NCBI RefSeq assembly: GCF_017794765.1
Contig: NZ_CP051236.1
Coordinates: 2,804,176 to 2,868,175 of the forward strand
DNA length: 64,000 nt
Source of the DNA: Nitratireductor sp.
GTDB taxonomy: Bacteria > Pseudomonadota > Alphaproteobacteria > Rhizobiales > Rhizobiaceae
Reading direction: 5' to 3'
Part shown: in pieces, positions 13,893 through 64,000 of the stretch
Numbering within the stretch: position 1 is the first letter of the stretch
Layout of the letters: every line of letters begins with the position of its first letter
Notes under the pieces: generated by a model
What the model saw: only the letters and a program-made list of their open reading frames with translations
What the model was told of the DNA's origin: nothing
The model's database searches: none
Program-made: the position numbers and the translations under genes

Positions 13893-14392
13893 GAGAAATC
13901 AGCATCCCGCGAGACCCGAAGACTGCGCGTTGCAGAAAACCTTCCGAGAACCCCGGAAGCCGAAGATCATGATTTGAAGAAACTGGGGGCCGGTCGGCAA
14001 ACTGGCAGCGGTACGAGGAGGCCACTATCAACCAGCGCCGGCCGGCCGACCCCACGGACCCAGGAGATGCGGCGGACCTGAGCATCATGGGGTATCCCGA
14101 GACGGCTGCCCGGCAACGCCGAGACGTAAACCCGCCCCTTTCGGCCGAGAGATTTGCGCAGGGCGGTCAGAAAATCAATACTTACTTAACCATTCCCGCC
14201 AACTCACTGGCGTTAGGGTTAAATATGGGGCGCATGTGGCGTTCCGTCAGCCCCCAAATTGGTGGAATGCATCATCACTCTTTCGTGCTGCAGCGTACCC
14301 GCAATGCGCAAGGGAATGACGCTCCCTCCAAAACCTGAAGGCAGGGCTATCAACTACCACCGGACCTGTGGTGGCTTTCTCTGTGGCGGGCT
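13893..14392. other. 500-base intergenic stretch between rpmG and pleD
   Basis: I find no gene here that I can support. Notable items are a TTAACCAT octamer at 14186-14193, which matches the CtrA half-site, a 37-codon frame starting ATGGGGCGC near 14225 with no ribosome binding site, and a weak CCACC/GGTGG hairpin followed by CTTTCT near 14355-14380 on the plus strand. Together these could mark a short plus-strand transcript, but each element alone is weak. Confidence 0.35.
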
Positions 14393-29074: not shown

Positions 29075-29204
29075 CCCAGGAATGCAGGTCGGTGAGGCAT
29101 TGTGCACAGAAAGCGTGATGCCAAAACAACAGTCAGCGTTATGGCAGGTGACAAACACCGCGGCCTGCGCTAGTTTCCAGCCGTCGAGGGCAGAAGCCCT
29201 GCCT

Positions 29205-29400
29205 GTCTGCGGGAGAGAGCCAAACCGGCATGTGCCGGAGCGGACGCCGAAGGGGAAATCGCCCGAAATCTCTCAGGCAAAAGAACCGTAGGCGGGCCAA
29301 GACACTCTGGAAAGTCGGGGAGCGATCCCCGCGCCGAAGGTGTAAGCGTGGTCGACAGGGTTCCGGCTGCGCGAGTCTCTCAGGCTTCCGACAGAGGGGC
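29205..29400 (+). ncRNA. Tandem glycine riboswitch upstream of gcvT
   Basis: Two consecutive glycine aptamers can be recognized. The first (about 29205-29292) has GGGAGAGA, the GCCGAAGGGGAAA core and CTCTCAGGCAAAAG. The second (about 29301-29400) has ACTCTGGAAAGTC, GCGCCGAAGGTG and TCTCTCAGGC. The conserved strands and tandem layout match the known class that turns on glycine cleavage genes when glycine is abundant. It ends about 45 bases before gcvT, so switching could act on transcription or on the gcvT ribosome binding site. Confidence 0.93.
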
Positions 29401-43937: not shown

Positions 43938-44099
43938 GAACGCTGTGGGCCCACGACAAGGCATGATGCCGTTGTGGGTGCCAGTTTCGCGCACGCCGCT
44001 GTCGGGCCGGGCTGAGATTTTTCTCCATTACCCGCTGGATAAGGCCGTGAACCGTTCAACTCGTCCCTGCCGAGACAGGGACTACGGGAGACGCCTTCT

Positions 44100-59572: not shown

Positions 59573-61009
59573 TTACTCGCCTTCTTCCTTCTTCTTGGCC
59601 GCAGCCTTCTTCGGAGCGGCTTTCTTCTTCGGAGCAGCCTTCTCCTTTTTTGCCGGCTTTGCCTCGGCCTCGTCTTCGTCGTCCGCCATCAATTCGTCGC
59701 GCGAAACCTTTTCGTCAGTGACGGAGATTTCACCGAGCAGATGGTCTATAACCTTCTCCTCGAACAGCGGCGCACGGATGTTGGCCATCGCCTGCGGGTT
59801 CTGACGATAGAACTCGTAGATTTCCTGCTGCTGATGCGGCGGGTAGCGGCGGATCGATTCGATGAGTGCACGCTGCATCTCTTCATCGCTGACCTTTACC
59901 TCGGCCTTCTCGCCAATCTCCGAAAGTACGAGCCCCAGACGCACGCGACGTTCGGCCAGGCGCTGATACTCTTCGCGCGCCTCGTCCTCGGTCGTGTCCT
60001 CGTCTTCGAAGGTCCGGCCGGCGGCCTCGAGATCGCGGGTCACCTGGTTCCAGATGTTCTCGAACTCGGCTTCCACCAGCTTGGACGGTGCTTCGAACTT
60101 GTAGGCGTCATCCAGTGCATCGAGAATCTGCCGCTTAGCCTTCTGGCGCGTCACCTGGCCGAACTGGTTCTCGAGCTGCCCGCGAACGATCTCACGAAGC
60201 TTGTCGGCAGATTCCAGCCCCAGCTGCTTTGCGGTCTCGTCATTGATCTCCAGCTCGTTCGGTTTGGAGATCTCTTTGACCTTGATATCGAATTCGGCTT
60301 CCTTACCGGCCAGATGCGCAGCCGCATATTCTTCCGGGAAGGTTACCTTGATCGTGGTCTCATCGCCGGCCTTGAGCCCAACAAGCTGCTCTTCGAAACC
60401 AGCGATGAACTGGTTCATGCCGATAACGACTTCGGAATCCTCGGCGGCGCCGCCATCGAAAGGCTCACCATCGATTTTTCCGAGATAGTCGAGCTTGACC
60501 TTGTCGCCTTCGGCCGCCTTGCCCTTCTTCACCTCATAGGTGCGGGCAGAATCGGCAACGCGTCGGACCTGCTCCTCGACTTCTTCGTCCGTCACGTCAT
60601 AAACCTGACGTGTGATCTTGATATCGGAGAAGCTCTTGAGTTCGATCGGCGGGATAACTTCGTAAGACATCGAGAATTCGAAGTCGGCGTTCCCGGACAG
60701 AACCTTTTCGGCTTCCTTCTCGTCCTCGGTCATTGAGATTTCCGGCTGAATGGCCGGCTTCTCGCCGCGGTCCGACAGGATGCTCTGCGTGTCCGCAAGT
60801 ATCTCGTTCACGACCTCAGCCATGAAGGATTTGCCATAGACGCGGCGCAGGTGCTGTGCGGGCACTTTGCCGGGGCGGAACCCCTTGAGGTTGACCTTGC
60901 CCTTAGCGTCATCGAGACGCTGGCTAAGGCGCGCCTCCATGTCCTTTGCAGGAACGACGACCTTAAGTTCGCGCTTGAGCCCTGAGTTGAGAGTTTCGGT
61001 TACCTGCAT
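59573..61009 (-). CDS. tig: Trigger factor
   Basis: The 478-residue ribosome-bound chaperone has the N-terminal ribosome-docking signature GFRPGKVP, a central FKBP-type prolyl isomerase domain (about 150-245, including [17 protein letters not shown]) and a helical C-terminal cradle. The tail beyond about residue 445 is an unusually Lys/Ala-rich low-complexity stretch. It helps nascent proteins fold. The leftward tRNA-Leu lies about 90 bases upstream, so the two could be co-transcribed. Confidence 0.96.
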
Positions 61010-61097: not shown

Positions 61098-61182
61098 TGG
61101 TGCGGGTGGAGGGACTTGAACCCCCACGGCTTGCGCCACAGGAACCTAAATCCTGCGTGTCTACCAATTCCACCACACCCGC
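61098..61182 (-). tRNA. tRNA-Leu (anticodon TAG)
   Basis: The 85-base gene folds with acceptor GCGGGTG/CACCCGC, anticodon stem CAGGA/TCCTG around TTTAGGT (anticodon TAG), a long variable arm typical of leucine tRNAs and a TTCAAGTCC T loop. CCA is encoded at 61100-61098. Confidence 0.96.
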
Positions 61183-61440
61183 TTCGAAAAACCCAAGGAG
61201 CGCCCTAAGCTTCCGAAAGCGCGGGTTCTATATCACCTGCACCTAGTCTATCAAAGCAAAATTGGCAAGATTCAGGGCTTTTTTATGCCTTTCTCCGATC
61301 GGCCGGACATGAACAGGGCGCGCGCTTTTCCGCACTCATTTATAAACCGATTATATCCCGGCCGAACATCGGCCACAACGCAGCCGCAAAAGCGCCATGC
61401 TGCATTGCACAAATCGCATTGCTGTCATGCAACATTGGCA
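61183..61440. other. Non-coding stretch between tRNA-Leu and the DUF1127 promoter
   Basis: This part of a 330-base gap has no supportable gene. It should contain the tRNA-Leu promoter on the minus strand. I see no strong hairpins or repeats in it. Confidence 0.5.
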
Positions 61441-61469
61441 CTTCAAAGCTGAGCGGTAAGGGACTATCT
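61441..61469 (+). promoter_or_regulatory. RpoH-like promoter of the DUF1127/small RNA transcript
   Basis: CTTCAA (61441-61446) and CTATCT (61464-61469) are separated by 17 bases. This is close to the alphaproteobacterial RpoH consensus (CTTG at -35, CYATNT at -10), with a perfect -10 match and one mismatch in the CTTG core. Transcription would start near 61476, about 40 bases before the DUF1127 ATG. Confidence 0.6.
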
Positions 61470-61515
61470 CAGGCTCAACAAACGAACACGGAATTCAAAC
61501 GAAGCGAGCACTGAG

Positions 61516-61656
61516 ATGAACATCATCCGCAATTACCGCAACTGGCGCCGTTACCGTCAGACCGTCACCGAGCTGAGCCGCCTCTCCAATCGTGAGCTGA
61601 ACGATCTGGGCATCTCCCGCGGCGACATCCCCTTCGTGGCGCGCAAGTCCCTCTAA
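61516..61656 (+). CDS. DUF1127 micro-protein (46 residues)
   Basis: A short frame from ATG 61516 to TAA 61654-61656 encodes MNIIRNYRNWRRYRQTVTEL followed by SRLSNRELNDLGISRGDIPF and VARKSL. This is the classic DUF1127 pattern: basic, Tyr/Arg-rich N-terminus and the L-x-x-L-[ST]-[ND]-R-x-L-x-D-[IL]-G-[IL] motif. Such proteins bind RNA or act in phosphate, carbon or stress responses in the few cases studied. In Rhodobacter a DUF1127 gene is co-transcribed with the CcsR small RNAs; the same arrangement is seen here, with the first RNA hairpin 21 bases after the stop. Confidence 0.92.
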   Translation: MNIIRNYRNWRRYRQTVTELSRLSNRELNDLGISRGDIPFVARKSL

Positions 61657-61676
61657 GGGCATTCGAGATTTCGAGT

Positions 61677-61789
61677 TTCGCCAGGGTCACCTCCTCCCGA
61701 TCCTGACGAATATGACCGACAACCTCCTCCTCCCAATTGTCGGTCACCCAAAACAACACCTGCCGGATCTCCTCCCCCGGCAGGTGTTG
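61677..61789 (+). ncRNA. Cuckoo-type (CcsR-like) small RNA, unit 1
   Basis: Three consecutive hairpins each expose a CU-rich loop. Hairpin A (61677-61710) pairs TTCG-CAGG with CCTG-CGAA around CCTCCTCCC. Hairpin B (61714-61745) pairs GACCGAC with GTCGGTC around a loop with CCTCCTCCTCCC. Hairpin C (61754-61789) has a perfect 13-base stem around ATCTCCTCCC. No T run follows, so unit 1 is probably released by processing. The loops are complementary to GGAGG Shine-Dalgarno sequences. A small GAAA-loop hairpin (61802-61817) separates this unit from the next. Confidence 0.85.
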
Positions 61790-61837
61790 AAACGGGCGGC
61801 AGAGCCGGAAACGGCTCGCCACACAGAGTTTTAGAGT

Positions 61838-61953
61838 TTCCTTTGGGGTTATCCTCCTCCCAATCCCGAAGGAACCGACCGGCAACCTCCTCCTCCCAAT
61901 TGCCGGTCATCCCAAAACGACACCCGCCGAACCTCCTCCCTCGGCGGGTGTTG
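61838..61953 (+). ncRNA. Cuckoo-type (CcsR-like) small RNA, unit 2
   Basis: This unit repeats the plan of unit 1. Hairpin A (61838-61874) pairs TTCCTT with AAGGAA around CCTCCTCCC. Hairpin B (61877-61908) pairs GACCGGC with GCCGGTC. Hairpin C (61918-61953) pairs ACACCCGCCGA with its complement around ACCTCCTCCC. Stem sequences differ from unit 1 with compensating changes, for example GACCGAC/GTCGGTC against GACCGGC/GCCGGTC, while the loops are unchanged. That is strong evidence for conserved RNA structure. Confidence 0.85.
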
Positions 61954-62007
61954 TTTCCGGGCAGAAGCCTCCTATATGGGGCCTGTCAGGATTTGAGTTT
62001 CATAGAT

Positions 62008-62131
62008 TTCGCTTGGGTTACCTCCTCCCAACCCTGGCGAATAGACCGGCAACCTCCTCCTCCCAAAATTGCCGGTCATCCCATAACGACATCCGCCGAA
62101 CCTCCTCCCTCGGCGGGTGTCGTTTTTTTTT
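62008..62131 (+). ncRNA. Cuckoo-type (CcsR-like) small RNA, unit 3 with terminator
   Basis: Hairpin A (62008-62041) pairs TTCGC and GGGT with ACCC and GCGAA around ACCTCCTCCC. Hairpin B (62044-62077) pairs GACCGGC with GCCGGTC. Hairpin C (62087-62122) has a 13-base stem around ACCTCCTCCC and is followed by nine T residues (62123-62131), making it the rho-independent terminator of the whole DUF1127-RNA transcript. Units 1 and 2 lack such a T run. Confidence 0.87.
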
Positions 62132-62137
62132 CGTCCC

Positions 62138-62710
62138 TCAGCGTTCCCCGCGCACACCGCGTTTTTTCCATTCGGTCAGTCTCATGATGTCCGGCGTGCC
62201 TCCGGCCGGCTCAAACCAGCTATCCACCGCCCAATCCTCACCGCTCTTCGTTCGAAGCACGGCTGTCGCATGCGGGTAACGCACGTCGAGGAAGAATCCG
62301 CGCGCGGAGTTTCGCCGGACTGTGTGATGACGAAGAAGCCCATGCCGCTCCAGATAGCGCAGGAGCGTATGCGTGTTTCGCGACTCGTCGATGCAATCCA
62401 TCTGGCCATAGACATGAGCACCGCCGGGTGCCGATTTCGGATCGTCCCTCACTCCGATAACCCGCGTTGCCAAAGTTTCGAAATAGCGCACCGCCTTTGC
62501 CACGGCTGCCCGTTCAGCTCTCGCAGACGCTTTGCCTGATGCCATGATGGCAATCAGTCTCCGCCTGACCCCGGCGTCGATCGTCATGCTTTTCTTGTAA
62601 AAGCAGCCATAACCGCTGCACACATACAGTCGCTCCGCCTTCGCTCCGCCTGCCCAGAGGAGTGCCAACGCAACGCAAACCGATACAACACGTAAAATTT
62701 CAAGCCCCAT
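62138..62710 (-). CDS. Conserved exported protein of unknown function
   Basis: The 190-residue protein has a signal peptide (about 1-25, ending GGAKAE) and a pair of cysteines soon after (VCSGYGCFYKK), which could form a disulfide, with a further Cys in YGQMDCIDESRNT. The rest contains conserved-looking blocks such as DVRYPHATAV and WAVDSWFEPAGG. I do not recognize a named family, although similar proteins seem common in rhizobia. It converges on the small RNA array, ending 7 bases after the array's terminator T run, and is divergent from trmFO. Confidence 0.75.
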   Translation of the reverse strand: MGLEILRVVSVCVALALLWAGGAKAERLYVCSGYGCFYKKSMTIDAGVRRRLIAIMASGKASARAERAAVAKAVRYFETLATRVIGVRDDPKSAPGGAHVYGQMDCIDESRNTHTLLRYLERHGLLRHHTVRRNSARGFFLDVRYPHATAVLRTKSGEDWAVDSWFEPAGGTPDIMRLTEWKKRGVRGER

Positions 62711-62832: not shown

Positions 62833-64000
62833 ATGAAACCGATACACATCATTGGCGGCGGTCTTGCCGGTTCAGAAGCTGCCTGGCAGATCGCACAGGC
62901 GGGAATTCCCGCAATTTTGCATGAGATGCGACCGGTGCGCGGCACCGATGCTCACAAGACCGACAGCTTGGCCGAGCTGGTCTGTTCCAATTCCTTCCGT
63001 TCCGATGACGCAGAGACCAATGCGGTCGGCCTGCTCCACGCGGAAATGCGATTGGCGGGTTCGCTCATCATGCGTTCGGGCGACGCCAATCAGGTGCCGG
63101 CCGGCGGTGCGCTTGCAGTGGATCGTGACGGCTTCTCACAAGCCGTTACGGCAGAGCTTGAGGCCCACCCGTTGATCACCATCGAACGCGAAGAGATCAC
63201 CGGCCTACCGCCCGAGGACTGGGACCTGGCAATTATTGCCACGGGTCCCTTGACCGCACCGGCACTTGCAGAAGCGATCTCGCAGGCTACCGGCGCCGAA
63301 TCTCTCGCATTCTTTGACGCCATCGCCCCCATCGTTCATTTCGATTCCATCGATCTGAACGTGGCATGGTTCCAGTCTCGCTATGACAAGGTCGGCCCCG
63401 GCGGTACGGGCAAGGACTACATCAACTGTCCCATGGACAGGGCGCAGTACGAAGCATTCATTCAAGCTTTGCTCGATGGCGGCAAGACCGAATTCAAGGA
63501 GTGGGAAGGCACGCCCTATTTCGACGGCTGCCTCCCGATCGAGGTAATGGCGGAGCGAGGCCCCGAAACGCTCCGTCATGGTCCGATGAAACCTATGGGG
63601 CTGACCAATGCGCATATGCCCGATCAGAAGCCCTACGCGGTGGTCCAACTGCGGCAGGACAATGCGCTGGGCACGCTCTACAATATGGTCGGATTTCAGA
63701 CGAAGCTGAAGTATGGTGAGCAAACTCGCATTTTCCGTATGATCCCTGGTCTGGAAAACGCCGAGTTCGCCCGCCTCGGTGGGCTGCATCGCAACACTTA
63801 TCTGAATTCTCCGACCCTTCTGGACGGCACTTTGCAGCTGAAGAGCCGTCCAGGACTTCGTTTTGCCGGCCAGATCACCGGCTGCGAAGGCTACGTGGAA
63901 AGCGCGTCCATGGGATTGATCGCTGGTCGCTTTGCTGCTGCCGAACGCTTGGGCCGCCCTATTCCCGTGCCACCAGCGACCACCGCTTTCGGTGCCCTGC
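62833..64000 (+). CDS. trmFO: Methylenetetrahydrofolate-tRNA-(uracil-54-C5)-methyltransferase (3' end outside window)
   Basis: The frame is open to the window edge with about 389 residues visible of the usual 450-475. It starts with the FAD-binding motif [40 protein letters not shown] and [15 protein letters not shown] are TrmFO signatures, including the cysteine of the CSNSF block. The enzyme uses methylenetetrahydrofolate and FADH2 to make ribothymidine at position 54 of tRNAs. An in-frame ATG at 62812 could add 7 residues; neither start has a clear ribosome binding site. Confidence 0.94.

Follow-up and report, generated by a model that had tools for sequence, protein, structure and literature searches.

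Cuckoo RNAs with two, three, and four hairpins have been described (PMC3927594), and the alpha-r14 group among them is defined by three hairpins, each with a CCUCCUCCC loop (PMC10746234, PMC3927594). NfeR1 of Sinorhizobium meliloti, the founder of alpha-r14, is reported to be activated by LsrB, whose motif in the NfeR1 promoter is TGCA-N6-GCAT; its proven target is ntrB, for which an eight-base contact with any of the three loops was predicted (PMC10746234). In Rhodobacter, the association of a DUF1127 gene with CcsR-like RNAs has been published as the CIN1 locus, and processing by RNase E involves the DUF1127 protein, CcaF1 (PMC10253847). The present analysis concerns a locus of Nitratireductor sp. 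in which three tandem alpha-r14 RNAs stand behind a 46-codon DUF1127 gene; it lies in a 64,000-nucleotide stretch of contig NZ_CP051236.1 (positions 2,804,176 to 2,868,175), referred to here as the window. The genome that holds the window is 3.70 Mb in a single contig, and the trigger factor encoded in the window shares 98% identity with its counterpart in Nitratireductor sp. B36.

LsrB is reported to transduce redox state (PMC8844928), and the abcR1 promoter has a VtlR/LsrB box given as GCAT-N3-TG-N3-T (PMC8844928, PMC7486931). VtlR is described as activating three DUF1127 genes in Brucella and, directly, atu1667 in Agrobacterium, whose product is labeled a small hypothetical protein, an ortholog of two of the Brucella ones. 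Whether atu1667 acts as a protein or a small RNA was stated in 2020 to be unknown, and more than 210 genes of the VtlR regulon were reported as unexplained by AbcR1 (PMC7486931). The interpretation favored here, which is considered probable, is that the DUF1127 gene and the three RNAs behind it form one LsrB/VtlR-activated RNA that would be processed and whose nine loops would block mainly mRNAs for solute uptake. LsrB would bind an element upstream of the DUF1127 gene and activate a single RNA containing that gene and three ar14 units; RNase E, aided by the DUF1127 protein as by CcaF1 in Rhodobacter, would cut it into mRNA and small RNAs, and the freed loops would cover the ribosome-binding sites of uptake and nitrogen-control mRNAs.

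Structure and Conservation of the ar14 Array

An earlier note on this DNA, made from the sequence alone, had described three tandem cuckoo-type units behind a 46-codon DUF1127 gene and had named the Rfam models as a check. All three units (61672–62125) pass the gathering cut-off (58.8 bits) of Rfam ar14 (RF02344; alpha-r14, founder NfeR1, within the "cuckoo" group), with scores of 84.5–99.5 bits and E values of 8e-14 to 4e-17, and the gene matches Pfam PF06568 (E 1.9e-18); the proposed kinship with cuckoo/CcsR RNAs was thus recovered, under the Rfam name ar14. The tandem arrangement stands, but the unit length of about 115 bases given in the note does not, the Rfam model giving 121–123 bases.

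61672–61792, + strand: ar14 unit 1 (RF02344 91.9 bits; fold z −7.8)
61677–61710, 61713–61746, and 61754–61789, + strand: hairpins A, B, and C of unit 1 (fold)
61690–61698, 61726–61734, and 61769–61776, + strand: loops of unit 1
61834–61956, + strand: ar14 unit 2 (RF02344 99.5 bits; fold z −8.6)
61838–61874, 61877–61908, and 61915–61956, + strand: hairpins A, B, and C of unit 2 (fold)
61853–61861, 61889–61897, and 61932–61940, + strand: loops of unit 2
62004–62125, + strand: ar14 unit 3 (RF02344 84.5 bits; fold z −9.1)
62008–62041, 62044–62077, and 62085–62124, + strand: hairpins A, B, and C of unit 3 (fold)
62021–62029, 62056–62064, and 62101–62109, + strand: loops of unit 3

When folded singly, units 1, 2, and 3 each form the three hairpins that had been proposed, at −52.1, −58.8, and −54.8 kcal/mol, respectively (unit 3 including its T-run, 62004–62130), and none of 200 shuffles equaled these folds. 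Eight of the nine anti-Shine-Dalgarno loops are exactly CCTCCTCCC, and that of hairpin C in unit 1 is TCTCCTCCC, in agreement with the claim that all nine show one motif or a close variant. The adjacent hairpins, CCUCCUCCC loops, and variable stems that characterize the cuckoo family are all present, and a three-hairpin ar14 array of this kind is far above chance. The two-hairpin form of the Rhodobacter CcsR RNAs does not apply, as the units here have three hairpins each; the cuckoo family reportedly ranges from two to four.

Conservation was examined in loci of relatives found by searching named genomes with the trigger factor (tig) of the window, the best 80 of 311 being retained; with the window, these tig loci make up 81 stretches. 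In an alignment of 65 of the 112 units from tig loci to the three-hairpin structure, 96.5% of cells are paired, falling to 32–50% when partners are slid by 1–3 columns, and 20 of 32 pairs have two-sided changes. Compensating changes in the stems had been claimed in the earlier note, which had named a lack of covariation as the observation that would count against it; covariation was found, with a score of 0.375 against 0.197 for shuffled alignments and none of 500 shuffles as high, although it should be noted that kinship among the sequences can by itself push the score above that of shuffles. Of the loop-motif columns, 25 of 27 are invariant across the 65 units, whereas the stems change. In a set of 33 units, of which 29 come from other genera, two-sided changes affect 21 of the 23 pairs predicted for hairpins B and C. 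Hairpin A, which had been suggested to be a lineage-specific addition, has two-sided changes in 9 of its 11 pairs in the 65 units; that suggestion is ruled out, and hairpin A is no novelty because three hairpins are the standard alpha-r14 layout (PMC10746234, PMC3927594). The two loops per RNA mentioned in the same note apply to Rhodobacter, where two hairpins represent a shorter form of the RNA.

Sequence identity among the units follows their position. Among eight three-unit Nitratireductor arrays (the four-unit array of L042 and the single unit of Nitratireductor arenosus, L068, being excluded), identity between species is 0.891 for units in the same position and 0.823 for units in different positions. 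They are read here as distinct, position-specific copies that provide dose, because the stems differ from copy to copy but the loops are almost constant.

The DUF1127 Gene

61516–61656, + strand: DUF1127 gene, 46 amino acids, arginine-rich (Pfam PF06568, E 1.9e-18)

Comparison with the eight Nitratireductor loci L036–L043 gave 4–14 base changes in the DUF1127 gene, with no amino acid change in six and two changes in two of them; L068 has 24 base changes. Among 61 full-length sequences, 1004 of 1597 changes are at third positions. The frame is therefore considered to be a real gene, since the protein is kept despite base changes that fall mostly at third positions. A short DUF1127 gene beside CcsR-like RNAs, the arrangement of a CIN1 locus, is found here, and the association of cuckoo RNAs with DUF1127 that the earlier note had mentioned is the one published under that name (PMC10253847).

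The Upstream Element and LsrB

The piece absent from the earlier interpretation is the promoter. The strongest conserved block 5′ of DUF1127, in an alignment of 25 of the 65 upstream regions, is a 31-base element that contains both published LsrB motifs.

61401–61431, + strand: ultraconserved 31-base element TGCATTGCACAAATCGCATTGCTGTCATGCA, putative LsrB/VtlR operator (alignment, motif counts)
61406–61419, + strand: TGCA-N6-GCAT, inside the 31-base element
61416–61428, + strand: GCAT-N3-TG-N3-T, inside the 31-base element
61441–61469, + strand: putative core promoter CTTCAA-N17-CTATCT (sequence; −10 conserved in relatives)

A transcription start near 61476 is suggested by the position of the −10 and would place the LsrB-type box near −60. 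The box of the putative operator lies upstream of the promoter, as in direct targets of LsrB/VtlR, and the conserved element points to LsrB/VtlR as the candidate regulator. A joint motif, TGCA-N6-GCAW-N3-WG-N3-T, in which the two overlap and A or T is permitted at two places, lies no more than 200 bases from the start of DUF1127 in 61 of the 65 tig-locus regions, compared with an average of 0.005 in single-base shuffles; it is missing in L064, L096, L099, and L103. It is also present in 16 of 27 other DUF1127-ar14 units from genomes of the family and order (26 are from further genera and families, and one is a Nitratireductor locus, L193, that is also in the tig set). Among 45 ar14 units without DUF1127, five of which come from the same genus, it lies within 160 bases of 5 (0.01 expected, in shorter stretches). 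With up to 3 mismatches allowed, the genome has no second copy of the 31-base element, and nothing comparable was found in the surroundings of its three other DUF1127 genes. As a marker, a 16-base pattern at up to 2 mismatches gave 517 genome sites and was replaced by the joint motif together with conservation. A generic scan for sigma-70 promoters found none. A relaxed LsrB-type box is also present 55 bases upstream of an ar14 RNA in L126, from a strongly reduced genome of the same family (G015, 1.1 Mb).

The genome encodes a candidate for the regulator. A single ar15 (AbcR) RNA was found, following a gene for a LysR protein of 296 amino acids and the end of a thioredoxin reductase (trxB) gene, and the published box occupies −62 to −50 relative to the point where the AbcR model begins. 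The LysR protein gives a full-length match (E 1e-138) to Protein Data Bank entry 9HH1, which is the structure of LsrB of Agrobacterium tumefaciens (PMC11975290). Against NCBIfam, none of the matches listed for this protein (the best 25 of 55) is above its own cut-off; the name LsrB is assigned because of the 9HH1 match and the trxB-abcR neighbors.

Evidence for a Probable Single Transcript

62085–62131, + strand: hairpin C of unit 3 with nine T, likely array terminator (sequence, T-run comparison)
61957–62003, + strand: spacer 2 with CCTATATGG, possible internal −10 for unit 3 (CTATAT in 6 of 8 Nitratireductor spacers)

The nine T residues noted previously are at 62123–62131, whereas units 1 and 2 of the window are followed by 0 and 3 T, respectively. 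Runs of at least 6 T follow none of 47 inner units, 12 of 34 last units of multi-unit arrays, and 16 of 31 single units; in the nine multi-unit Nitratireductor arrays, the last unit has 5–9 T and inner units at most 4. The pattern expected for co-transcription, a T-run at the end of the array and none between units, is thus observed. The LsrB motif was found in none of the 47 spacers, and both spacers of the window are able to form small hairpins. Taken together, the conserved element, the presence of LsrB in the genome, and inner units without T-runs suggest that DUF1127 and the three ar14 RNAs are most likely one LsrB-activated transcript.

A generic terminator scan, which considers loops of 3–8 bases only, did not list hairpin C of unit 3 with its T-run and returned a single terminator-like site, no more than shuffles give. 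That site is hairpin C of unit 1 (61754–61789) on the minus strand. A reading frame of 190 amino acids (62138–62710, − strand), which has no Pfam or NCBIfam match, runs antiparallel to the array, and the array might also terminate transcripts of this opposing gene.

Synteny and Distribution

59573–61009, − strand: tig (trigger factor), divergent neighbor and synteny anchor (Pfam Trigger_N, Trigger_C, FKBP_C)
61098–61182, − strand: tRNA-Leu, between tig and the operon (ARAGORN; Rfam tRNA 56.9 bits)
62833–63999, + strand: trmFO-like gene, downstream anchor, truncated by the window end (Pfam GIDA 331.6 bits)

The gene with the GIDA domain at 62833–63999 is presumed to be trmFO. A DUF1127-ar14 cluster occupies the tig-trmFO interval in 64 of the 80 loci; with the window included, DUF1127 and the ar14 units are on the strand pointing away from tig in 65 of 81 stretches, DUF1127 lies 0–700 bases before the first unit in all 65, and neither DUF1127 nor ar14 is found alone at the tig locus in any of the 81. 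One further stretch, L080, has such a DUF1127-ar14 cluster on the opposite strand. The distance between tig and DUF1127 is less than 1 kb in 21 of 64 loci, and trmFO starts 0–3 kb past the last unit in all 64 loci that have both. The gap between array and trmFO falls into two size classes (69–168 or at least 695 bases) because the 190-residue frame is present or absent; relatives of this frame occur in 33 of the 80 loci.

The number of units is one in 31, two in 22, three in 11, and four in 1 of the 65 stretches; Nitratireductor indicus (L042) has an extra unit and N. arenosus one only. Among the 116 model matches of the tig set, four (two in L080 and two weak ones) were omitted from these counts, which include two partial units, the second of L073 and one of the four in L042; of 108 matches at other loci, 15 below 30 bits were omitted. 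Outside the tig set, ar14 was found at E ≤ 1e-3 in 44 of 60 relatives' genomes, the present genome counted, and trmFO in 26 of the 80 stretches fetched from those genomes, nearly all around ar14 matches. In genome G032, five ar14 matches in a row stand at a contig end beside trmFO (L171), and a different contig end has two more that follow DUF1127 and tig (L170); these are perhaps one larger array of the tig-trmFO locus, split by assembly.

In the stretch L004:905–1607 (C1:1405086–1405788) of the present genome, a phasin gene (PF09361) is followed by a fourth ar14 RNA, which begins 17 bases past the stop codon, and the same order is seen in five more stretches (L128, L130, L148, L189, and L191), 9–28 bases past the stop. 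These phasin-linked RNAs are cuckoo RNAs of a 3′ untranslated region type, belonging to a polyhydroxybutyrate-granule gene. Elsewhere in the window, the other Rfam matches above cut-off are EcpR1 (Atu_C6) at 13983–14095 (− strand), a glycine riboswitch at 29200–29298 (+ strand), and a THF-II riboswitch at 44052–44090 (+ strand).

Predicted Targets

The complement of the loops is GGGAGGAGG. The genome contains 93 sites of the form GGGAGGA-N4-10-ATG and 76 of the form AAGGAGG-N4-10-ATG; of the first 30 of each, 23 and 14, respectively, open a frame of at least 60 amino acids. Genome-wide, GGGAGGA-N4-10-ATG precedes 7 of 25 DctP and 3 of 14 SBP_bac_8 genes, and AAGGAGG precedes none of these 39. 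Past the first 30 sites, in the portion of the genome from which the families had not been chosen, a hand count gives GGGAGGA before 5 of 22 (p 1.4e-4 if 2570 genes are assumed). The loop complement is over-represented at the starts of solute-binding-protein genes, which supports targeting without proving it, because high expression could also select strong Shine-Dalgarno sites. The nitrogen-control branch is represented by ntrC (NCBIfam, above cut-off), which is preceded by a gene with PAS histidine kinase domains whose best NCBIfam match, NR(II), is below cut-off (184 versus 240 bits); this gene is taken to be ntrB because ntrC is next door. Its leader has AGGAGGAG just before the start codon, which pairs over 8 bases with each hairpin B loop and over 7 with the other loops. 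The earlier note had proposed that the loops either compete for ribosome-binding sites or titrate an RNA-binding protein; the analogy with NfeR1 and the target-side counts argue for the former, and nothing in this analysis supports the latter.

Weighing of the Interpretation

Several observations weigh against a single LsrB-activated transcript that silences uptake genes. The 61 of 65 regions with the joint motif should not be taken as 65 independent events because the tig loci are mutually related; the motif is absent from 11 of the 27 other DUF1127-ar14 units and from 40 of the 45 units without DUF1127, and the exact single box GCAT-N3-TG-N3-T is in 49 of 65 regions. As a marker by itself, that box was uninformative (8 matches in the window, 9.58 expected). 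The gap between tig and DUF1127 is at least 1 kb in 43 of 64 loci, so other genes may intervene, and only 12 of 34 last units have the longer T-run. In the sites viewed first, the preponderance of transporter genes after GGGAGGA (10 of 23 versus 2 of 14 after AAGGAGG; p 0.06–0.07) is not significant alone; the genome-wide p of 3e-8 presumes 3600 genes and families that were picked after the first 30 sites had been viewed, and strong Shine-Dalgarno sequences at abundant proteins would give the same enrichment. An RNA-binding role for the DUF1127 protein has to be set against reports that Agrobacterium DUF1127 proteins act on the sensor kinase PhoR and that no RNA binding was seen for Salmonella YjiS (PMC12501420).

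The core promoter CTTCAA-N17-CTATCT fits the sigma-70 consensus (CTTGAC-N17-CTATAT) and that of RpoH1 (CTTGAA-N16-CCTATAT) about equally (PMC8844928), and CcsR1-4 with ccaF1 are reported to be under an RpoHI/RpoHII promoter (PMC10253847). A stress unit of the Rhodobacter kind, in which DUF1127 and the RNAs are transcribed from an RpoH-type promoter while the upstream element serves another factor, is nevertheless unlikely; the most conserved upstream block is the one with both LsrB motifs, and the −35 in most of the 25 aligned regions reads CTTC or CTTT and then varies, as expected under an activator. Slightly better odds, though still low, attach to a separate promoter for each unit, or at least for unit 3, with DUF1127 as a gene that merely stands in front. 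The CCTATATGG of spacer 2 may serve as an internal −10, CTATAT being found at this place in 6 of 8 arrays of the genus, and NfeR1 is transcribed from a promoter of its own (PMC10746234), but Nitratireductor spacers are about 40–48 bases long (apart from one of 143 in N. indicus), spacer 1 has no conserved CTATAT, and the spacers lack the LsrB motif as the inner units lack T-runs. Titration of a protein or of the ribosome platform by the C-rich loops, in place of pairing with chosen mRNAs, is improbable. Nine near-identical loops per RNA do resemble a sponge; however, the loops match the anti-Shine-Dalgarno core, their complement is enriched at solute-binding-protein genes, and NfeR1 with three mutated loops was reported no longer to silence ntrB, the loops being redundant (PMC10746234). 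Least probable is that the hairpins are a mere stabilizing 3′ untranslated region of the DUF1127 mRNA: they do start right after the stop codon and finish in a T-run, but the loop motif is nearly invariant where stems vary, the number of units ranges from one to four, and ar14 also occurs without DUF1127 (45 units) and behind phasin genes.

Novelty and Significance

Published work already covers the RNA family with its layout of three hairpins, the anti-Shine-Dalgarno mode of action, the association with DUF1127, tandem copies, and the action of LsrB on NfeR1 and of VtlR on DUF1127 genes. The new part is the proposal that these two kinds of control come together in a single operon that has a shared operator and is conserved at the tig-trmFO locus; in the literature searched, no publication was found that places LsrB/VtlR, DUF1127, and cuckoo RNAs together in such an operon, and nothing usable was found on small RNAs of Nitratireductor, a genus outside the usual models. 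A wider and more tentative proposal, given a little less than an even chance, is that the DUF1127 gene targeted by LsrB/VtlR heads a cuckoo operon and that its protein matures or delivers the RNAs behind it, so that LsrB would serve throughout the Hyphomicrobiales as a self-contained dimmer for nitrogen control and the uptake of solutes. One redox-sensing LysR promoter would then yield a small arginine-rich RNA-binding protein together with a battery of anti-Shine-Dalgarno loops (nine here), which would bring together in a single transcription unit two lines of work, on DUF1127 proteins that bind and mature RNA and on alpha-r14 RNAs that silence nutrient uptake, and would account for much of the LsrB regulon beyond AbcR1. 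If DUF1127 does head an LsrB-driven cuckoo operon, the nature of atu1667 and the unexplained part of the VtlR regulon become directly testable, and the range from one to four units between loci offers a natural dose series.

Comparison with Known Systems

Among the closest known systems is NfeR1 of S. meliloti, which likewise has three hairpins with CCUCCUCCC loops, TGCA-N6-GCAT upstream of its transcription unit, and an ntrB leader complementary to the loops; the units here, of 121–123 bases, are above the ar14 cut-off. NfeR1 is described as a single RNA with its own promoter, one of six genome copies, of which one was seen expressed (PMC7143759), whereas here three tandem units stand behind DUF1127 and the operator precedes that gene. 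The CcsR1-4/ccaF1 (CIN1) locus of Rhodobacter sphaeroides shares the tandem anti-Shine-Dalgarno RNAs behind a DUF1127 gene and the terminator at the end, but its RNAs are reported to have two hairpins (PMC3927594) and an RpoHI/RpoHII promoter (PMC10253847), in contrast to the three hairpins and LsrB-type element found here, and its DUF1127 protein has 71 residues compared with 46. AbcR1 and AbcR2 (Rfam ar15) resemble the array in their anti-Shine-Dalgarno motifs, in the control of AbcR1 by LsrB, and in their transporter targets (PMC7143759, PMC8844928), but they belong to another family, are Hfq-bound, and lie beside lsrB. The VtlR/LsrB-activated DUF1127 genes of Brucella (BAB1_0914, BAB2_0512, and BAB2_0574) and Agrobacterium (atu1667) have the same type of operator before DUF1127; the passages that describe them speak of a gene or a "putative sRNA" and mention no cuckoo RNAs behind them, unlike the present locus, in which the array follows the gene directly.

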